A DNA stretch of 64,000 nt from Rikenella microfusus DSM 15922. GTDB taxonomy: Bacteria; Bacteroidota; Bacteroidia; Bacteroidales; Rikenellaceae. The stretch spans positions 186,001 through 250,000 of the forward strand of contig NZ_KE386488.1 of the NCBI RefSeq assembly GCF_000427365.1. The letters are read 5' to 3'. Both the position numbers and the translations under genes were made by a program. This document shows, piece by piece, positions 52,089-60,001 of this stretch (its first letter is position 1; each line of letters begins with the position of its first letter). Under the pieces are notes generated by a model. That model did not search any database. It worked only from the letters and a program-made list of their open reading frames with translations, and was not told where the DNA came from.

Positions 52089-52551
52089 ACGCTCGAAGCC
52101 GTTAAAAATCGGAGGTAATTATATACTATTTTTACACGGCAATGATTTTTCGGTTCGCGCCGGACCCTTCAGGTCTGTTGCCCGGGTTTGCACCGCCTCA
52201 TGCCGTCCGGCGCGGAACCGAAACGGGGTTTGTGTAAAGTCGTATATAGTCGTCATCGGGTTACGCCCGTAAAGATAACACTTTTTCAGGCACCTTTTCC
52301 GCATTTACGTACCCGCCGGGCGCCGCATCCGGTTTTTCAGCGGAACCGTCGCGCTTCGGGCACTGTCCATAATCCGGGGCCAACCTGCAAACGCGCCGGA
52401 GACAACGTCCTGCTTTCTCTCCGGCTGCCATATCCCGGTCGCGTCGTGCATCGGCCGGAACCGAAAACATACGATTCGGAGTAAGTCCGCAGCCTGCCAA
52501 GATACGACGTACCCTCCCCGACCTCGGCCCGCCCGCTGCCGAGGAACGGCC
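52089..52551. other. Spacer upstream of dacA, no supported gene
   Basis: About 460 bases hold only open frames of unlikely composition (arginine/proline-rich). No mosaic module or linker is seen. The dacA promoter should lie near 52100-52140, where the minus strand has TAGTATATAATTAC, but no exact TAnnTTTG box is present. Confidence 0.5.
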
Positions 52552-52773
52552 TTACAGGACATATCCTGATTTTCTTTGTAACAAACCACGCAGAATGTTC
52601 TCTTTTCCATGATGCTGTACGTTTTTGATGATCAATACGTTTACAGCATAGAAATGTTGCGGGGCAAGATATGGCAGGAGTGCGTAATAACCGTCATTCT
52701 CGACCCATTTCAGATTTGGTTCCGAAAGGTCGCTAATCAGGTTTAGAAACCTTGCGTTTGGTTGCTTTTTCAT
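52552..52773 (-). CDS. Small hypothetical protein at the island border
   Basis: The 73-codon ORF from the ATG at 52773 encodes MKKQPNARFLNLISDL..., a mixed polar/hydrophobic sequence of natural composition (Asn-, Lys- and Leu-rich) in DNA that is AT-richer than the backbone. There is no signal peptide, membrane helix or motif I recognise. The frame extends 14 codons upstream to 52815. It sits just left of a tRNA-like repeat and may be the end of an older insertion or a gene fragment. It is doubtful but more protein-like than the other frames here. Confidence 0.4.
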   Translation of the reverse strand: MKKQPNARFLNLISDLSEPNLKWVENDGYYALLPYLAPQHFYAVNVLIIKNVQHHGKENILRGLLQRKSGYVL

Positions 52774-52857
52774 GCGACCGCCTGAAAAGAAAAAATCCTT
52801 ACCTATCATTGACACATAAGGATTTTTCGTCTTATTACAGCCTCTTTTTCAAGGCGT

Positions 52858-53050
52858 CTGGAGCGGAAAACGAGACTCGAACCCACGCAGAGCGTGGGTA
52901 TCTCGCGCCGTTGTCCGCACCCCCGTTCCCCCTCATAGGGGGCCTTGGGGTCGCTCGCCGAAGTCTCCGTTTTCCGAAAACAAGAAAGCCGGCAATCGTT
53001 TGATTACCGACTTCCCTCATGAGCGGAAAACGAAAACCGAACCTTCGGTT
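52858..53050. repeat. tRNA-3'-end-like sequence and repeats at the GC-shift border, candidate att site
   Basis: On the minus strand 52858-52900 reads GTGGGTTCGAGTCTCG then TTTTCCGCTCC, like the T-loop and 3' acceptor strand of a tRNA. I cannot fold a complete convincing tRNA around it: the T-stem is weak and the anticodon arm unclear. GAGCGGAAAACGA occurs at 52861-52873 and again directly at 53021-53033, with an inverted partial copy near 52966-52976. A hairpin AACCGAA/TTCGGTT (53035-53050) follows. From here to the right GC falls sharply. The remaining bases to 53167 show nothing else. Confidence 0.5.
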
Positions 53051-53167: not shown

Positions 53168-54397
53168 TCACGAATTTACAATCTCCGATTCCGGATTCGT
53201 TAGACTGATTAATTCCTCGCAAAAGATGGGTTTATCACATTTTTGAACCATAAAGGGAGCCCGGAAAAATGACAAATTGAGGGAAACGATAGCTCTTAAT
53301 ATATCCATTATTGTTGCGTTGCATTCTGTTCGTATTTTTCTAAGTTCAGGGTATTTCAAACAGCCTTTTTCAAGTTGTTCTTTCAATGCATTTTCCAATG
53401 TCTTATTGGGCATGTGTAATAGTATTTTAGAAAAATCATCATGACCATTCGTCAGGATGGCTCCCGTCCCTTTTTCTTTGCAATATTCAATCAAGGCTTT
53501 AAATTTAGTGTGGACTTTTCTCTCTACCATTCCTAATGTATCCTTGATTTCAACTACAAAACATCGTCCGTCGCTCAAGAATACCGTTACATCAGGAATG
53601 TAATAATGCATCCGTGTTTTGATGAAATACGGAACCTATTCAGCTTGTTCCGTGTAATGGATCACGTCAGGACATTCTTCCAGGAAACCATAAAACTGTT
53701 TCTCAAGCAATGACTCATAAAAAACATTGCGATTTAACTTTTGGGAAAAGAATTCACCTTGTTTTGATCGATTTCTCTCAGTATCCGAATTCAATTGTCT
53801 GACTGACAAGTAGTTTTTCATTTCTGCCTCAGACCATATTTTAGGAGTATCAAACCATATGATACTTCCGATTAATTTCTCTAATCTGGTATTTAACTTC
53901 AGTATTTTTCTTTGTGCCTTTTGTTTTCGTCTATTGTTCTGTCGGTTCTGGCATATAATGGTTTCCCATTTATCAACACTCTCGGAATTCTTGTAAAGGT
54001 AAAACGATAGCAATCTTAATAACAAATTAAGATTGAAATCGGGCATATGTTCTTTGTGGAATTGCTCAATGTATAATGCGAATTGTTCATCACACTCGAT
54101 AGAGACAGAATGGTTTTTTGAAATATGATTGTCAATCTCTACTATGGCGGGGTAGTTATTCCGGCGTAGAAATCCCATTCTCTTGAAAATTTTGACGTGT
54201 AATTGACGAATGCGTTCGCGGCTCAGGCCGTATTCTTGGGCAATTTCTGTAAATGTATGTATTTCGGAATCCGCTAATCCATACGTTTCCATCAAAATCT
54301 TACGATCCCTATCCGAATATAGTGGCGCCCCATTTTTCTTTAAAGCAAGGGAACATTGATAAAAACAATCGAAAAAATGTAATCCTATGGCATCCAT
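53168..54397 (-). pseudogene. Sigma-region-4-like HTH / PD-(D/E)XK nuclease fusion interrupted by one TAG
   Basis: Two ORFs (54397-53636 and 53611-53168) are in the same frame, separated by a single TAG (53636-53638) and 8 sense codons; together they make 409 codons. Residues 48-72 (FTEIAQEYGLSRERIRQLHVKIFKRM) form a sigma-70 region 4-like helix-turn-helix. The C-terminal part resembles a TnsA-like restriction-endonuclease fold: a Glu in YESLLEKQF (227-235), then DVIHYTEQAE before the stop. After it comes YIPDVTVFLSDGRCFVVEIKD, giving Asp269 and Glu283-x-Lys285. The stop falls between the catalytic elements, so the nuclease is inactive unless the TAG is read through or is a sequence error. 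Low-GC codon use differs from the backbone. Confidence 0.78.
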
Positions 54398-54527
54398 AAT
54401 AATAGAACTTTCACACTGAAGTTGGCTTGAGGGTTATGAACTATATTAATCTTTGCGTTGTATTGGGGGAGGTTTTATCTGTATAGAAATATGCGCTTTC
54501 AGTGTGAACTGAATCCATATGCTATTA

Positions 54528-56237
54528 TTAGAATTTTAAAAGCAGATTATGCATGTCCACAAATTGGTCTGTTAATCCATCATATACCTGATCGCAAGCT
54601 ATTGCGTAGTTGTTAGAAATGGAATTAGGCTCAATACCCAATTTCTCTAATGCCGAATTAAATTTCAAAGTGGAATTATGGTTCTTATGAGCGTCTAATT
54701 GCCTTATATCATTCAACGCAAACAATTTTGACAGCATATTAAACTCCTTTAATTCAGCAACCCTCTCAATAATGGCTGCTTTATCATGAATAGGATTCAG
54801 CCCCGTTTCGACACTTACAAACAGATACTTTAGCACAAACTCCAGAAGCTTCAGACTTCGATAGTCTTTAGTATTATCCGATGAAAAACCAAGCGAGTTG
54901 ATGATTTTACGTAAGTTACTCTCCCGTAAATTTTCCGCCAATAAAATGTATAGTTTTTTGCATCGGGAAATAAAATCCTCTTTGCAAAATTTCCGCACAC
55001 TGACATGATGTGTGATTGGATTATAATCAGGAAAATCCATCCATCCGGTCTCATCGATTGCCCCTTGATTTAATGTGATTATTTCTACAGGTGATAATGA
55101 AATGTCGCAAATCTTATTAACGACCTGGGAGAACAATTGTCCGAATAAAAAATATTTTCGAGTCAAACGTTTTGCTTTATCCGCTATATTTTCTCCGTCC
55201 CCTACTGCCGAGATATCTATTGAATATTTGTTCCAATGCTCGATAACGTCGTCAGGTGTCCCTTCATATAATTTTTTCAATTCGACTTTAATGCCATTGC
55301 GTCCGATACGTTCACAATGGCCAACTGCCCATTGATTTCGATATCTTACCCCACCAGAATCGGGATGGACTGCATAATCGTCGTCGGTTTCATACAATTC
55401 CAGTACATCATCCGATACGTAAACATACTCGCCTGCCATTTCATGGCGGGCACGATATTCGGTAACTATACCTTCAATACCTTTCCAATAATGTCCTACA
55501 GGGGATATCTCCATTTCAAATTCGTCAACAGGGATTATTTTATAGCCATTAATTTCAAGCCTGGCGACACCCTCTTTATGACTGGATTCACTAATCCGGA
55601 TTTCGAATTGCCCAAACTCTTCAATAAAATAGCCCTTTTCGTTAAGCAATCCCTTAATGTCGTCGTCAACATTTATCTCTTTAATTATAGTGAAAAGTTG
55701 AACAGCAGTTTTCTTACGATAGGACAGATATTGGTCTAAATACTCTTTTTTTACCTTTACATAGGCTTCTGTATGATTAGGGAAATCATATTCCGAAATC
55801 AGCTTATTTTTTACGACGTCATAATCGGGCTTTGATAAATTATCCCAATATATTTCATCGTTTAATAATCTGGGAATTAGACGAAAGGTACTCAGAAAAC
55901 CTTGATCTATAGATAAGACCGTTTTATTGACGGATTCCCATGAAACAACCAAAGGTTCAGCCTTTTTTAATCCGGATGAAGGAGATGCGTACAGCCAGAA
56001 TGACGGCTTGTAGATATAATCTTTATTGTAATAGACTCCTGGTGCTTTAACAACAGGATTAATATGAGATGGTTTGATTTTGGAAATAAGTGCTGGGGAG
56101 ATTAGTGCCGTGTTTATGTCAATGGATGCTTTGTCCTCAGTTGTTTTAAGTTGAGCAACGGTAATATACCCATCGCAGGAAATATCGACATCTAAATAAT
56201 TCCCGATCAATTTAGTGATAATATCTTGTTCGTTCAT
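54528..56237 (-). CDS. 569-aa protein of unknown function with C-terminal HEPN-like motif
   Basis: I do not recognise this protein as a whole. The N-terminal 450 residues are mixed alpha/beta, without signal peptide or membrane helix. The C-terminal roughly 110 residues look all-helical and contain LNDIRQLDAHKNH, where R512-QLDA-H517 fits the HEPN ribonuclease consensus R-x4-H in its common RxxxAH form. HEPN domains are frequent effectors in abortive-infection and toxin systems, so an RNase role is plausible but unproven. Its ATG overlaps the stop of the DUF6236 gene by four bases, so the two are one translational unit. The DNA is low in GC and uses AT-ending codons, unlike the backbone. Confidence 0.8.
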   Translation of the reverse strand: MNEQDIITKLIGNYLDVDISCDGYITVAQLKTTEDKASIDINTALISPALISKIKPSHINPVVKAPGVYYNKDYIYKPSFWLYASPSSGLKKAEPLVVSWESVNKTVLSIDQGFLSTFRLIPRLLNDEIYWDNLSKPDYDVVKNKLISEYDFPNHTEAYVKVKKEYLDQYLSYRKKTAVQLFTIIKEINVDDDIKGLLNEKGYFIEEFGQFEIRISESSHKEGVARLEINGYKIIPVDEFEMEISPVGHYWKGIEGIVTEYRARHEMAGEYVYVSDDVLELYETDDDYAVHPDSGGVRYRNQWAVGHCERIGRNGIKVELKKLYEGTPDDVIEHWNKYSIDISAVGDGENIADKAKRLTRKYFLFGQLFSQVVNKICDISLSPVEIITLNQGAIDETGWMDFPDYNPITHHVSVRKFCKEDFISRCKKLYILLAENLRESNLRKIINSLGFSSDNTKDYRSLKLLEFVLKYLFVSVETGLNPIHDKAAIIERVAELKEFNMLSKLFALNDIRQLDAHKNHNSTLKFNSALEKLGIEPNSISNNYAIACDQVYDGLTDQFVDMHNLLLKF

Positions 56238-57274
56238 TCCCTAAAATTGCGAAAGGTTCTGTTGGCTAACGCCAGATATTTCATTCCGGAAGTATTGTCA
56301 ATACGATTCGGATTAAGATTGGAAATTGCCGTAGCAATTGCAATTGAGAGTGTAATTGATCCGGTAATCAAAACATTCCTATTGAATTCCCCTTCTAATG
56401 CCGCAGCCGCAAACGGTATCATGCCATGAACCGAATATTTGAGTATGTTTCTGTAATTGTATTCTTCCATCCGCCGGGTTATTTCATCCCGTTGTTCTTT
56501 GATGCGATTAAGTGTGGTATCGAATAATTCTGTATTAACAGTTATCGCGTCATTCAAGACAATCGCCTCTATCTCAGTTCTAAATCGGCTTAATAAGTCG
56601 TTATGTCTTTCTTTGAACCGCATTAACCGCCCTAAATCAATATCTTCCGGAAGCGGCATGATGTTTTTTAATAAAACATCGCGCTTTTCATTCCGGGTTC
56701 TTACGATTACATCATCTTGACTCTTGATCGCGAAGAATGGGAACTGATCTGTTATAGGAAAGGCATCTATTCTGCTTGCAATAAGACTGGTCAGCATGTA
56801 CATTAAGTCAAAGGCCGTTTTCTTTTCCACATAATACATGCTGTGGTTTTCGTGCCTGGCTAATCCAAGTTCTTGAAGCTCATGTAAAATTGCGGGTCCA
56901 AATTTACTTTCATATATCTGTGAGCTAAGAACGGATTCGTGTGGCTTGAATTTAGTCGCATACATAACGTGAGCAGAAACACTCATATAATGCTCCCCCC
57001 TGAAAGCCGCCTGCCTTTTCGTGAGGTCGTTATTTCTTAAATAACGGATAAATTGGATATGCAGTTGATTCTGTATATCATAGTCGCCTGAGAAATTCTG
57101 AGGAATGACCAACTCTTCACGAATCAATTCTTGCATATGTCGCGGATAGAGAGTGGGATCGTGAAAATATTCCATCGGAACGACGGTCGATATTTCATCA
57201 TAGTAAAGCAACTGGCGATACGTCCAAGCTTTGGGTGGCAAGCTAATAAAGGGGTAGTAAATAATTCCGCTCAT
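56234..57274 (-). CDS. DUF6236-like protein, first gene of a two-gene unit
   Basis: This 346-aa protein opens MSGIIYYPFISLPPKAWTYRQLLYYDEISTVVP, resembling uncharacterised DUF6236 proteins of phage-related and accessory regions (from memory; not searched). The middle is helical with charged stretches (LNRIKEQRDEITRRMEEYNY). Near the C-terminus a hydrophobic glycine-poor segment (MIPFAAAALEG and NVLITGSITLSIAIATAIS) could be a membrane hairpin or buried helix. The following 569-aa gene overlaps it by four bases. This tight pair in a low-GC island next to a reverse transcriptase and a nuclease suggests a defence module, by association only. Confidence 0.7.
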   Translation of the reverse strand: MSGIIYYPFISLPPKAWTYRQLLYYDEISTVVPMEYFHDPTLYPRHMQELIREELVIPQNFSGDYDIQNQLHIQFIRYLRNNDLTKRQAAFRGEHYMSVSAHVMYATKFKPHESVLSSQIYESKFGPAILHELQELGLARHENHSMYYVEKKTAFDLMYMLTSLIASRIDAFPITDQFPFFAIKSQDDVIVRTRNEKRDVLLKNIMPLPEDIDLGRLMRFKERHNDLLSRFRTEIEAIVLNDAITVNTELFDTTLNRIKEQRDEITRRMEEYNYRNILKYSVHGMIPFAAAALEGEFNRNVLITGSITLSIAIATAISNLNPNRIDNTSGMKYLALANRTFRNFRE

Positions 57275-57695: not shown

Positions 57696-58562
57696 TTAAG
57701 AACGAGAAGATTTTGCCTTGAGAGATGGTTTATTGGATTTGAAAACTAAATCTTTGTAATTCAATTCTCCCGCGATTTGTTCCTCGGTTTTTCCGTGAGA
57801 ATTTTTGATTTTCTCTTTGAGTTTATCTGTAATGTCAATATAATTATTCCCCACTGATATCCCAGTAATATTCGGATGATTGGTTCGATATGAGGTTTTA
57901 GTGTTGCTTATAGTGTAACCATCATGTCGAATAATGTCAAGGATTTCGGGAATCATCTCCTGAAAATCAGAGGGGCCTGAAATCGTTAAATCATCCACAT
58001 ATGTGCTAAATCGTAGTCCGCTTTGCACACAAAAATCGGCAATGACATTCCCTGTTTTTGTAAAAACAAAATTAGCCACAGTTGAAGAGGTCGGTGCTCC
58101 TTGAGGTATGTGTCCGTTATATGTCGTTAATTTTGTTAATATAGATGCTACATCAGGAGAAAAACCAAATCGGGTAAACATTCGATATCCTTCTCCACTT
58201 GTAATGGATGGAAAGAATCCCCTTAAATCTGTCTGAAAAATAAATTTATTTCCTTGATGAAATCGTCCGTTTGATATTCCGCTATGTTTTTTAACCGATC
58301 CAAAAGCATATGGAGCTGCTGAAATCTTTTCATTAAGCATTTTGTTAATGTGTTTCTGTACTATTTTCAGCGTCTTAATACTTGGATTGATTACTCTCAC
58401 CTCCGGCGTACCGTGTTTTGTTAATTTATGAAGTCCCTGCTTGTTTTTCTTCTTTTGCTCATATTCATAATAATAAGTATTAATATTGGAGAGTATCAAA
58501 TCAATCTCTTCCTTCTTTATGCTTATTGCCCTAAATAAAGAGTCGGGGTTACTTATCATCAC
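57696..58562 (-). CDS. Retron-type reverse transcriptase
   Basis: This 288-aa RNA-directed DNA polymerase has RT motif A FQTDLRGFFPSI (catalytic Asp112), the motif HIPQGAPTSSTVANF (151-165), and motif C FSTYVDDLTISG (YVDD at 188-191). The retron landmarks are present in diverged form: NGRFH (98-102) in place of NAxxH, and NITGISV (231-237) at the VTG position. A retron RT makes a branched RNA-DNA from an adjacent ncRNA and usually works with an effector in phage defence. Start codons are a GTG at 58562 or an ATG at 58559. Both overlap the end of the XRE gene, implying coupling. Low GC suggests transfer. No msr-msd was identified with certainty. Confidence 0.88.
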   Translation of the reverse strand: MMISNPDSLFRAISIKKEEIDLILSNINTYYYEYEQKKKNKQGLHKLTKHGTPEVRVINPSIKTLKIVQKHINKMLNEKISAAPYAFGSVKKHSGISNGRFHQGNKFIFQTDLRGFFPSITSGEGYRMFTRFGFSPDVASILTKLTTYNGHIPQGAPTSSTVANFVFTKTGNVIADFCVQSGLRFSTYVDDLTISGPSDFQEMIPEILDIIRHDGYTISNTKTSYRTNHPNITGISVGNNYIDITDKLKEKIKNSHGKTEEQIAGELNYKDLVFKSNKPSLKAKSSRS

Positions 58563-58843
58563 TAAAAAATGTATTCAACAAAGATTTTACAGAAGGGGAT
58601 AGCGCATCATAAGCTTCCCGTTTTTTTCTGGAATATCCTCGTTTTCGACAGATAAAAATAGGAGAATCGGGAGGGGAATAGAAAGACTATCGGTATTGCC
58701 TTGAGTGTTGGAATCGTTGGCTCTTTCTGGTTATTTTCAATTTGAGAAAGATATGTCTGTGTGATCTGACTTAACTTAGCAAGTTGAGTTTGAGTGATTT
58801 TCTTTTTCTTGCGAATGTCTCTTATAACAGAACCAATATCCAT
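58549..58843 (-). pseudogene. XRE-family regulator with two single-base deletions
   Basis: The intact N-terminus MDIGSVIRDIRKKKKITQTQLAKLSQITQTYLSQIENNQKEPTIPTLKAI is a standard XRE helix-turn-helix. The frame is then lost near 58692-58696: adding one base restores a sensible tail (DSLSIPLPILLFLSVENEDIPEKK). It is lost again at an A7 run (58621-58627 on the minus strand), where an eighth A would continue with REAYDALSPSVKSLLNTFFSDDK and a stop at 58549. Restored length is 98 aa. The restored stop overlaps the RT start by about 11 bases, so it is the first half of an XRE-RT unit. It may be truly decayed or a homopolymer sequencing error. Confidence 0.75.
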
Positions 58844-58870
58844 GTCAATCTAAAAAAATGGGGCGGGACG

Positions 58871-59098
58871 TTACAGAATCTCTTTAAATTTGTCATAAAC
58901 CTCGAATAGTAATAACAACAATGTTGCGGCTTTCTCGAATGAACCACGCCAGTCTGCATTGTTGCTTTCCAGTTTTCTCAGTTCGGTAAGACAAGATTTC
59001 AAAAGAGCTTCATCTTCGTCAGTTTGTGGACAACGGCCCTTTGACAGCAAACCTTCAATACCTTGCATGAGGTCTGCTAATTTTTGATTGTGTTCCAT
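58871..59098 (-). CDS. Small acidic helical protein upstream of the XRE-RT unit
   Basis: This 75-aa ORF begins MEHNQKLADLMQGIEGLLSKG and is predicted mostly helical, ending in a leucine-rich AATLLLLLFEVYDKFKEIL. No family is recognised. It lies 28 bases before the XRE gene on the same strand and is likely co-transcribed with XRE and RT. It could be a small retron-associated protein. A GGAGCAA-CA-TTGCTCC hairpin (59121-59136) lies just before its start region. Natural composition and operon position support it; function is unknown. Confidence 0.6.
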   Translation of the reverse strand: MEHNQKLADLMQGIEGLLSKGRCPQTDEDEALLKSCLTELRKLESNNADWRGSFEKAATLLLLLFEVYDKFKEIL

Positions 59099-59616
59099 AG
59101 TTTATGGATTTTGTTTAAGCGGAGCAACATTGCTCCTACTGCATAAACAAATAGTCCCTACTTAAACTCCATAAACGTTGTCCGTTTGTCCACCCCCAGT
59201 TTCCTGCTGCAAAATTGTTATTACTTATTTATTGATAATTCGTGCAATTAGCAACGTCTTAGCTTGCGGCAAAGCGTATATACTAATAGTTTAATAAATA
59301 CGCCCATATCGTCTATATGCATTTGTGCATATGCTCTTAGAGTCTTTACGCTCCTTTATATTTAGGAGTTACGTGAAGAGCGGTAAGGCGAGCAAAGACG
59401 TCCGGCCCCCAAGTACCATAATGGCATGCAGAACTTAATCTGCTTCAAGCATGTGGATTTAAGTAAGGAAATCAAAAATCACGTCAAAGAACTACACTGT
59501 AAACATAGCGATTATTACTGAAAGTTAATATTATTGATCAAAAATATTTTTCAACAAGTTGTCAACAATCAAATATTCAGTATTGTAAGCTGTATTTTAG
59601 AAGGAATAATCAAGTG
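59099..59616 (-). ncRNA. Structured 0.5-kb leader, candidate retron ncRNA region (unproven)
   Basis: This gene-free stretch upstream of the small ORF-XRE-RT unit is rich in stems: ATATGCA-TTTG-TGCATAT (59315-59332); GTCTTT(AC)GCTC (59342-59353) pairing with GAGC-AAAGAC (59390-59399) as a long hairpin; and, mutually exclusive with its lower part, CTCCT/AGGAG (59351-59355, 59364-59368). GCTCTT/AAGAGC (59333-59338, 59376-59381) is a further alternative. Near the ORF is GGAGCAA/TTGCTCC (59121-59136). Retron msr-msd RNAs lie upstream of the RT and are folded like this, but I cannot identify the branching G or the a1/a2 repeats. The remainder of the stretch is plain AT-rich spacer. Confidence 0.35.
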
Positions 59617-59648: not shown

Positions 59649-60001
59649 TTAACGAATCAGTGTGAATCGATATTTGACTTTTAAGCCAACACCGACATAA
59701 GTTCCCCGATATGCAGATCCGGAACCCCAATGATCAGGATTAAAAAACGGATTTGCATGAGCCTCCAATTCGGCAAATAACTCCTTGTACGGGCGAATAT
59801 CCTTGCTAATGCTAAAGTAAGGCCCGTAGGCATCGCTTGGAGCGTATTTTCCAACTCCAGTATCATAAAGCATTCCGGCGTAAATGCAAAGCCTGTCGAC
59901 AGCCTAGTCTTAAAAGATTCCTGCGCATTCGCACTCGTGCCGCCCCACGCCATAACTGAGGCGGCGGCCATACCGACGATGGCCCTGCTTGTTGTTCCCA
60001 T
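59649..60001 (-). pseudogene. Small outer-membrane beta-barrel-type protein, frameshifted
   Basis: The upstream part encodes a signal peptide MGTTSRAIVGMAAASVMAWGG...NAQ and FKTRLSTGF. After about residue 38 the sensible frame continues one base out of phase (IYAGMLYDTGVGKY...), through repeated aromatic strands to the end GVGLKVKYRFTLIR, an OMP-like aromatic C-terminus. Adding one base near 59885-59888 would restore a 117-aa protein. At about 117 aa it is too short for a full barrel and may be a fragment of a larger porin-like protein. Either a real frameshift or a single-base sequencing error explains it. The higher-GC style resembles the backbone more than the RT region does. Confidence 0.6.

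Follow-up and report, generated by a model that had tools for sequence, protein, structure and literature searches.

The TnsA subunit of Tn7 (1f1z, 1t0f) has a PD-(D/E)XK endonuclease fold in its N-terminal part and acts together with TnsB in the transposon. The 64,000-nucleotide stretch of Rikenella microfusus DSM 15922 that we analyzed (the window) contains a gene whose nuclease domain shares this fold, with 251-271 columns aligned. However, the gene has no TnsB or TnsC nearby and its nuclease does not group with the Tn7-like TnsAs in a tree. A second described protein, the sigma-like MzaA of the MZA anti-phage system, matched the helix-turn-helix (HTH) of the window gene weakly (E = 0.014 with PADLOC and 4e-5 with NCBIfam); the match was confined to the sigma region 4 HTH, and the other MZA genes are absent from the vicinity. 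The same two Pfam domains are found together in a 528-aa protein encoded on plasmids of the IncI type from E. coli, Shigella, and a small number of other Enterobacteriaceae, a family for which the literature we searched held no functional study. The nuclease domains nearest to that of the window gene belong to standalone Bacteroidota proteins of 229-261 aa that are 29-33% identical to it and carry no HTH. The HTH-TnsA architecture is thus present in databases yet apparently uncharacterised, and the window gene is a broken relative of this fusion family, not a working member.

Re-translation reproduced the coordinates and the in-frame TAG of the preliminary description and placed the gene on the minus strand, a detail that the description had omitted. 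The frame of 409-410 codons contains two stops, the TAG at codon 254 (TAG254) and the terminal TGA. Beyond TAG254 lie 155 open codons, a stretch that stayed open in 0 of 20,000 mononucleotide shuffles and that has 14 stops in each of its alternative frames. GC content by codon position is equal on either side of the stop. The openness after TAG254, the matching GC pattern, and the conserved residues that flank the stop mark this as one coding sequence with a single interruption and not a chance arrangement, and the earlier view that both halves are well preserved and free of a frameshift stands. An internal ATG at 53611 could yield a 147-aa C-terminal piece without E228.

Pfam and sequence alignments support the proposal that a sigma-factor-like HTH is joined to a TnsA-like nuclease and that the TAG separates parts of the active site. 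With TAG254 treated as a residue, the TnsA-like N domain (PF08722) was matched at aa 243-310 (E = 5.5e-8); the C-terminal half by itself scored E = 5e-5, slightly short of the family cut-off. We assessed residue conservation in two alignments: the first compared the gene with an intact homologue from a plasmid and with two relatives from Bacteroidota, the second with six relatives from Bacteroidota and viral contigs. E228, D269, E283, and K285 are invariant in both. TAG254 falls within a motif, EQP-(V/F)-(R/S)-IPY, between E228 and D269. We take E228, D269, and K285 to be the equivalents of TnsA E63, D114, and K132. Since TAG254 parts E228 from D269, E283, and K285, no single polypeptide holds the complete PD-(D/E)XK active site, and the 253-aa product would retain the HTH but, of the active site, one acidic residue only.

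An AlphaFold2 model built from a seven-row alignment, with TAG254 entered as Q, reached a pLDDT of ~90 over aa 221-395; confidence was low in the HTH half, where the other alignment rows are empty. The top Foldseek matches in the PDB were the TnsA structures 1t0f and 1f1z and the TnsABCD transpososome 9bw1 (E from 1e-4 to 9e-4, probability 1.0), with TM-scores that are low across the whole 409 aa. A profile search of PDB sequences matched 9bw1 and endodeoxyribonuclease I. The comparison with TnsA therefore returned the PD-(D/E)XK fold, the absence of which the preliminary description had named as grounds for giving up the nuclease assignment.

Table 1 Features of the interrupted HTH-TnsA-like gene, its surroundings, and the compared loci (window positions unless a locus is named).
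Feature	Position	Strand	Details
HTH-TnsA-like gene	53168-54397	minus	ATG start 54397-54395; TGA end 53170-53168; single internal TAG
Sigma70_r4-type helix-turn-helix, aa 28-74	54176-54316	minus	Pfam PF04545, E = 2.1e-9; PDB matches to region 4 of RpoS/RpoD/SigA
TnsA-like PD-(D/E)XK nuclease half, ~aa 221-409	53168-53737	minus	PF08722, AlphaFold model, Foldseek matches to TnsA
Codon of E228, invariant, putative catalytic Glu	53714-53716	minus	5' of TAG254; alignments with relatives
In-frame TAG, codon 254	53636-53638	minus	directly ahead of predicted strand aa 255-259; sense codon in relatives
Codon of D269, invariant D of 'PD'	53591-53593	minus	3' of TAG254; alignments with relatives
Codons of E283-x-K285, invariant	53543-53551	minus	3' of TAG254; alignments with relatives
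Perfect 11-bp inverted repeat, TTCACACTGAA / TTCAGTGTGAA	54410-54508 (arms 54410-54420, 54498-54508)		5' of the start codon; 77 nt between arms
Two copies of the tRNA-Gly 3' end	52859-53043 (52861-52883, 53021-53043)		probably the island's distal attachment site
Type VI retron reverse transcriptase, intact	57696-58562	minus	PADLOC RT_VI, E = 9e-71; 71% identical to an intact homologue in L109
Retron VI HTH partner, broken	58548-58843	minus	PADLOC HTH_VI; at least 2 single-base frame changes relative to the intact 98-aa homologue in L109
TnsA-like nuclease directly after a umuC-type gene	L081:6597-10162; L106:1916-5173; L107:1023-4276; L079:4228-7261; L080:6277-8726		Bacteroidota and viral contigs (L106, L107)

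On the IncI-type plasmids the fusion gene sits between excA and a hok/gef gene (WP_000004563.1 on NZ_CP024247.1; WHJ86803.1 on CP125022.1), and its product is annotated as a 'TnsA endonuclease N-terminal domain-containing protein'. The protein is present in at least 279 plasmid records, counted where at least 80% of its length lies in one place, and a DNA search with a threshold of at least 80% recovered the gene from 207 of the 5,426 E. coli genomes that are complete, plasmid-borne every time. An intact full-length homologue from this group (P0004) aligned with aa 26-371 of the window protein, across the HTH, the linker, and the nuclease, at 24% identity (E = 3e-21). The IncI protein resembles the window gene in domain order and in the E, PD, and ExK residues but differs in its longer N-terminus, in being mostly intact, and in residing on gammaproteobacterial plasmids. 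With a Sigma70_r4-type HTH placed N-terminal to a TnsA-like nuclease, the window gene falls within the HTH-TnsA family, though its frame is interrupted. Its 4.1-kb stretch had no DNA match among plasmids. A full-length fusion was sought in the genomes of 101 relatives and in 393 genomes of the order, 268 of the family, and 396 of the phylum; the window copy was the only one found in Bacteroidota, and the matches in the relatives and the family genomes were mostly sigma factors. Peptide-pattern searches of GTDB and of viral contigs similarly returned no Bacteroidota HTH-TnsA fusion except the window gene. Separate IncI HTH and TnsA open reading frames in NZ_OP038276.1 were considered as naturally split genes and rejected, as that copy is 4 nt shorter than the usually intact gene.

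The standalone Bacteroidota nucleases group with the window nuclease (support 95/94), and both non-transposon groups lie apart from the transposon TnsAs (95/96), in a small tree with few rows, long branches, and a long branch for the window protein itself. Five of these nuclease genes directly follow a umuC-type gene (Table 1). A umuD-type gene lies upstream in four of the five loci (L079, L080, L106, and L107), and a gene for an SOS-associated peptidase (SRAP) comes after the nuclease in three, identified by sequence in L081 and by Pfam in L106 and L107. Judged from this gene order, umuD-umuC-TnsA-like-SRAP may be an SOS operon, so far undescribed, that includes a nuclease of the TnsA type. 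The window gene, by contrast, has the HTH, does not follow umuD-umuC, and has none of these partners beside it. The preliminary description had called the architecture unusual and had named homologues lacking either domain as evidence against it. Both points come out mixed: the closest Bacteroidota relatives do lack the HTH, whereas the IncI fusions have both domains and are common, so the architecture is unusual only in part.

The window gene is the first gene inside an AT-rich block of ~37% GC in a host of 55-60% GC. At the right end of the block (L027:1254-2910), an intact tyrosine recombinase (MEKRTFCVVFFCK...) lies beside an intact tRNA-Gly, at the equivalent of window position ~66,338, slightly outside the window; two copies of the tRNA-Gly 3' end mark the other side (Table 1). 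The block thus looks like a tRNA-Gly-integrated island of ~13 kb. A possible integrase remnant (MEKRTFCVVCYK...) is present at the left end, within window positions 52305-53043. Rfam gave no match across 52-62.5 kb.

Within the island, a type VI retron locus (57696-59500) comprises the reverse transcriptase, its HTH partner, and a 75-aa open reading frame. Relative to its homologue, the gene for the HTH partner carries two single-base indels, one of them within an A7 run. A two-gene operon (54528-57274) encodes a 569-aa protein and a 346-aa DUF6236-like protein with an overlap of 4 bp; the 569-aa protein had no match in Pfam, PADLOC, or NCBIfam and no homologue in the 393 order genomes. Farther along, a secreted or outer-membrane-like open reading frame (59649-60001) has its signal peptide and C-terminal part in different frames and is probably broken cargo. 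The damage to neighbouring genes speaks for an island in decay, although sequencing errors could also have produced the indels of the retron gene.

We favour, with a probability of about three in four, the reading that the gene is a non-transposon member of the HTH-TnsA family, the outermost cargo of the ~13-kb tRNA-Gly island, and was recently inactivated by a nonsense mutation. A recent mutation in a decaying island accords with the single lesion, the preserved residues, the lack of a tRNA with a CUA anticodon, the broken retron HTH gene, and the broken copies on IncI plasmids. The preliminary description had listed a fresh nonsense mutation, a sequence error, and regulated readthrough; after our tests the first two remain, and mutation is preferred. 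An intact member would bind DNA through its sigma-region-4-like HTH and cut it with its PD-(D/E)XK domain, and cutting would probably benefit the mobile element, through defence, element-versus-element competition, or DNA-damage processing. The bearing on anti-phage defence is contextual: the gene shares its island with the type VI retron locus. The product of the window copy would be no longer than 253 aa, possibly able to bind DNA but unable to cut it, and the 147-aa fragment from the internal ATG may be made as well. The gene is probably costly or dispensable and is often lost, as on the IncI plasmids.

The main rival is an error of sequencing or assembly, in which a wrong base call has created an apparent TAG in a gene that is truly intact. 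The remaining frame is perfect, with no frameshift after TAG254, and the indels in the nearby retron HTH gene resemble some errors of long-read assembly. However, a substitution is less typical of long reads than an indel, the long genes of the host within the window, one of 1196 aa among them, seem uninterrupted, and the breakage we observed is in the foreign island. We therefore consider an error unlikely, at well under half the odds of a coin toss.

It is considerably less probable that the truncation was selected, with the 253-aa HTH half retained as a regulator, for instance of its own promoter, and the nuclease shed. The HTH half is intact, and the inverted repeat just 5' of the gene resembles an operator: 4 of 2000 dinucleotide shuffles reached such a repeat, the window holds no other exact copies of its arms, and we regard it as a candidate operator. 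Several broken IncI copies likewise keep the HTH half alone, having lost the nuclease frame in the linker. By contrast, the nuclease half of the window gene has no further lesion, which implies that TAG254 is either young or false, and one plasmid copy (L121) has breaking indels in its N-terminal part as well. Other lesions in IncI copies include a shortened C-run, a deletion in a G-run, an IS3 insertion, and larger deletions.

The linker between the HTH and nuclease of the IncI gene contains an (AAGA)n tract (L120:1171-1190, nt ~872-890 of the 528-aa gene; also in L028, L117, and L118). Three units are present in ~206 E. coli genomes, four, which shift the frame, in 5, and two in one Shigella plasmid. 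Such changes move the nuclease half in or out of frame and leave the HTH half unaffected. This variation is a lead only, since a tract of three units is short by the standards of classical phase variation and the four-unit copies may descend from a common ancestor. We give little credence to the idea that the family is built for switching off the nuclease while keeping DNA binding, by slippage of the linker tract on IncI plasmids and by a stop codon here. If it were true, the truncated HTH protein would act as a working repressor or as a decoy, and populations would contain both nuclease-on and nuclease-off forms.

Finally, we examined whether TAG254 could be read through. The genome has 47 tRNAs according to Infernal, and ARAGORN assigned their anticodons; none is CUA, so the suppressor tRNA that the preliminary description had suggested looking for is missing from this set. 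All aligned relatives have a sense codon at the TAG254 column, and a pattern search of viral contigs around the stop returned no other alleles. One match with a TAG inside (G012) was irrelevant, the TAG lying upstream of that gene's ATG. The 101 nt after TAG254 form a somewhat more stable fold than shuffled sequences do (z = -2.6), but a 121-nt stretch that includes it does not (z = 0.3), and no convincing RNA element was found around the stop. Several long open reading frames of the window end in TAG, which makes it look like an ordinary stop here, a weak point as these frames were called mechanically. With neither a suppressor tRNA nor a conserved stop and stimulatory element, with folding that is not robustly stable, and with at least one neighbouring cargo gene also broken, regulated readthrough that yields active nuclease under some conditions only is the least probable account, despite the preservation of both the HTH and the nuclease halves.

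At present, then, TAG254 reads as ordinary gene decay, and the interest of the locus is that it represents, in broken form, a family that is uncharacterised. There are at least two non-transposon settings for TnsA-type nucleases: fused to an HTH on plasmids and islands, and standing alone beside umuDC-SRAP. Our search of the literature found no functional study of this non-transposon group. Its proteins form a clade separate from the transposon TnsAs compared here and constitute a group that can be tested.
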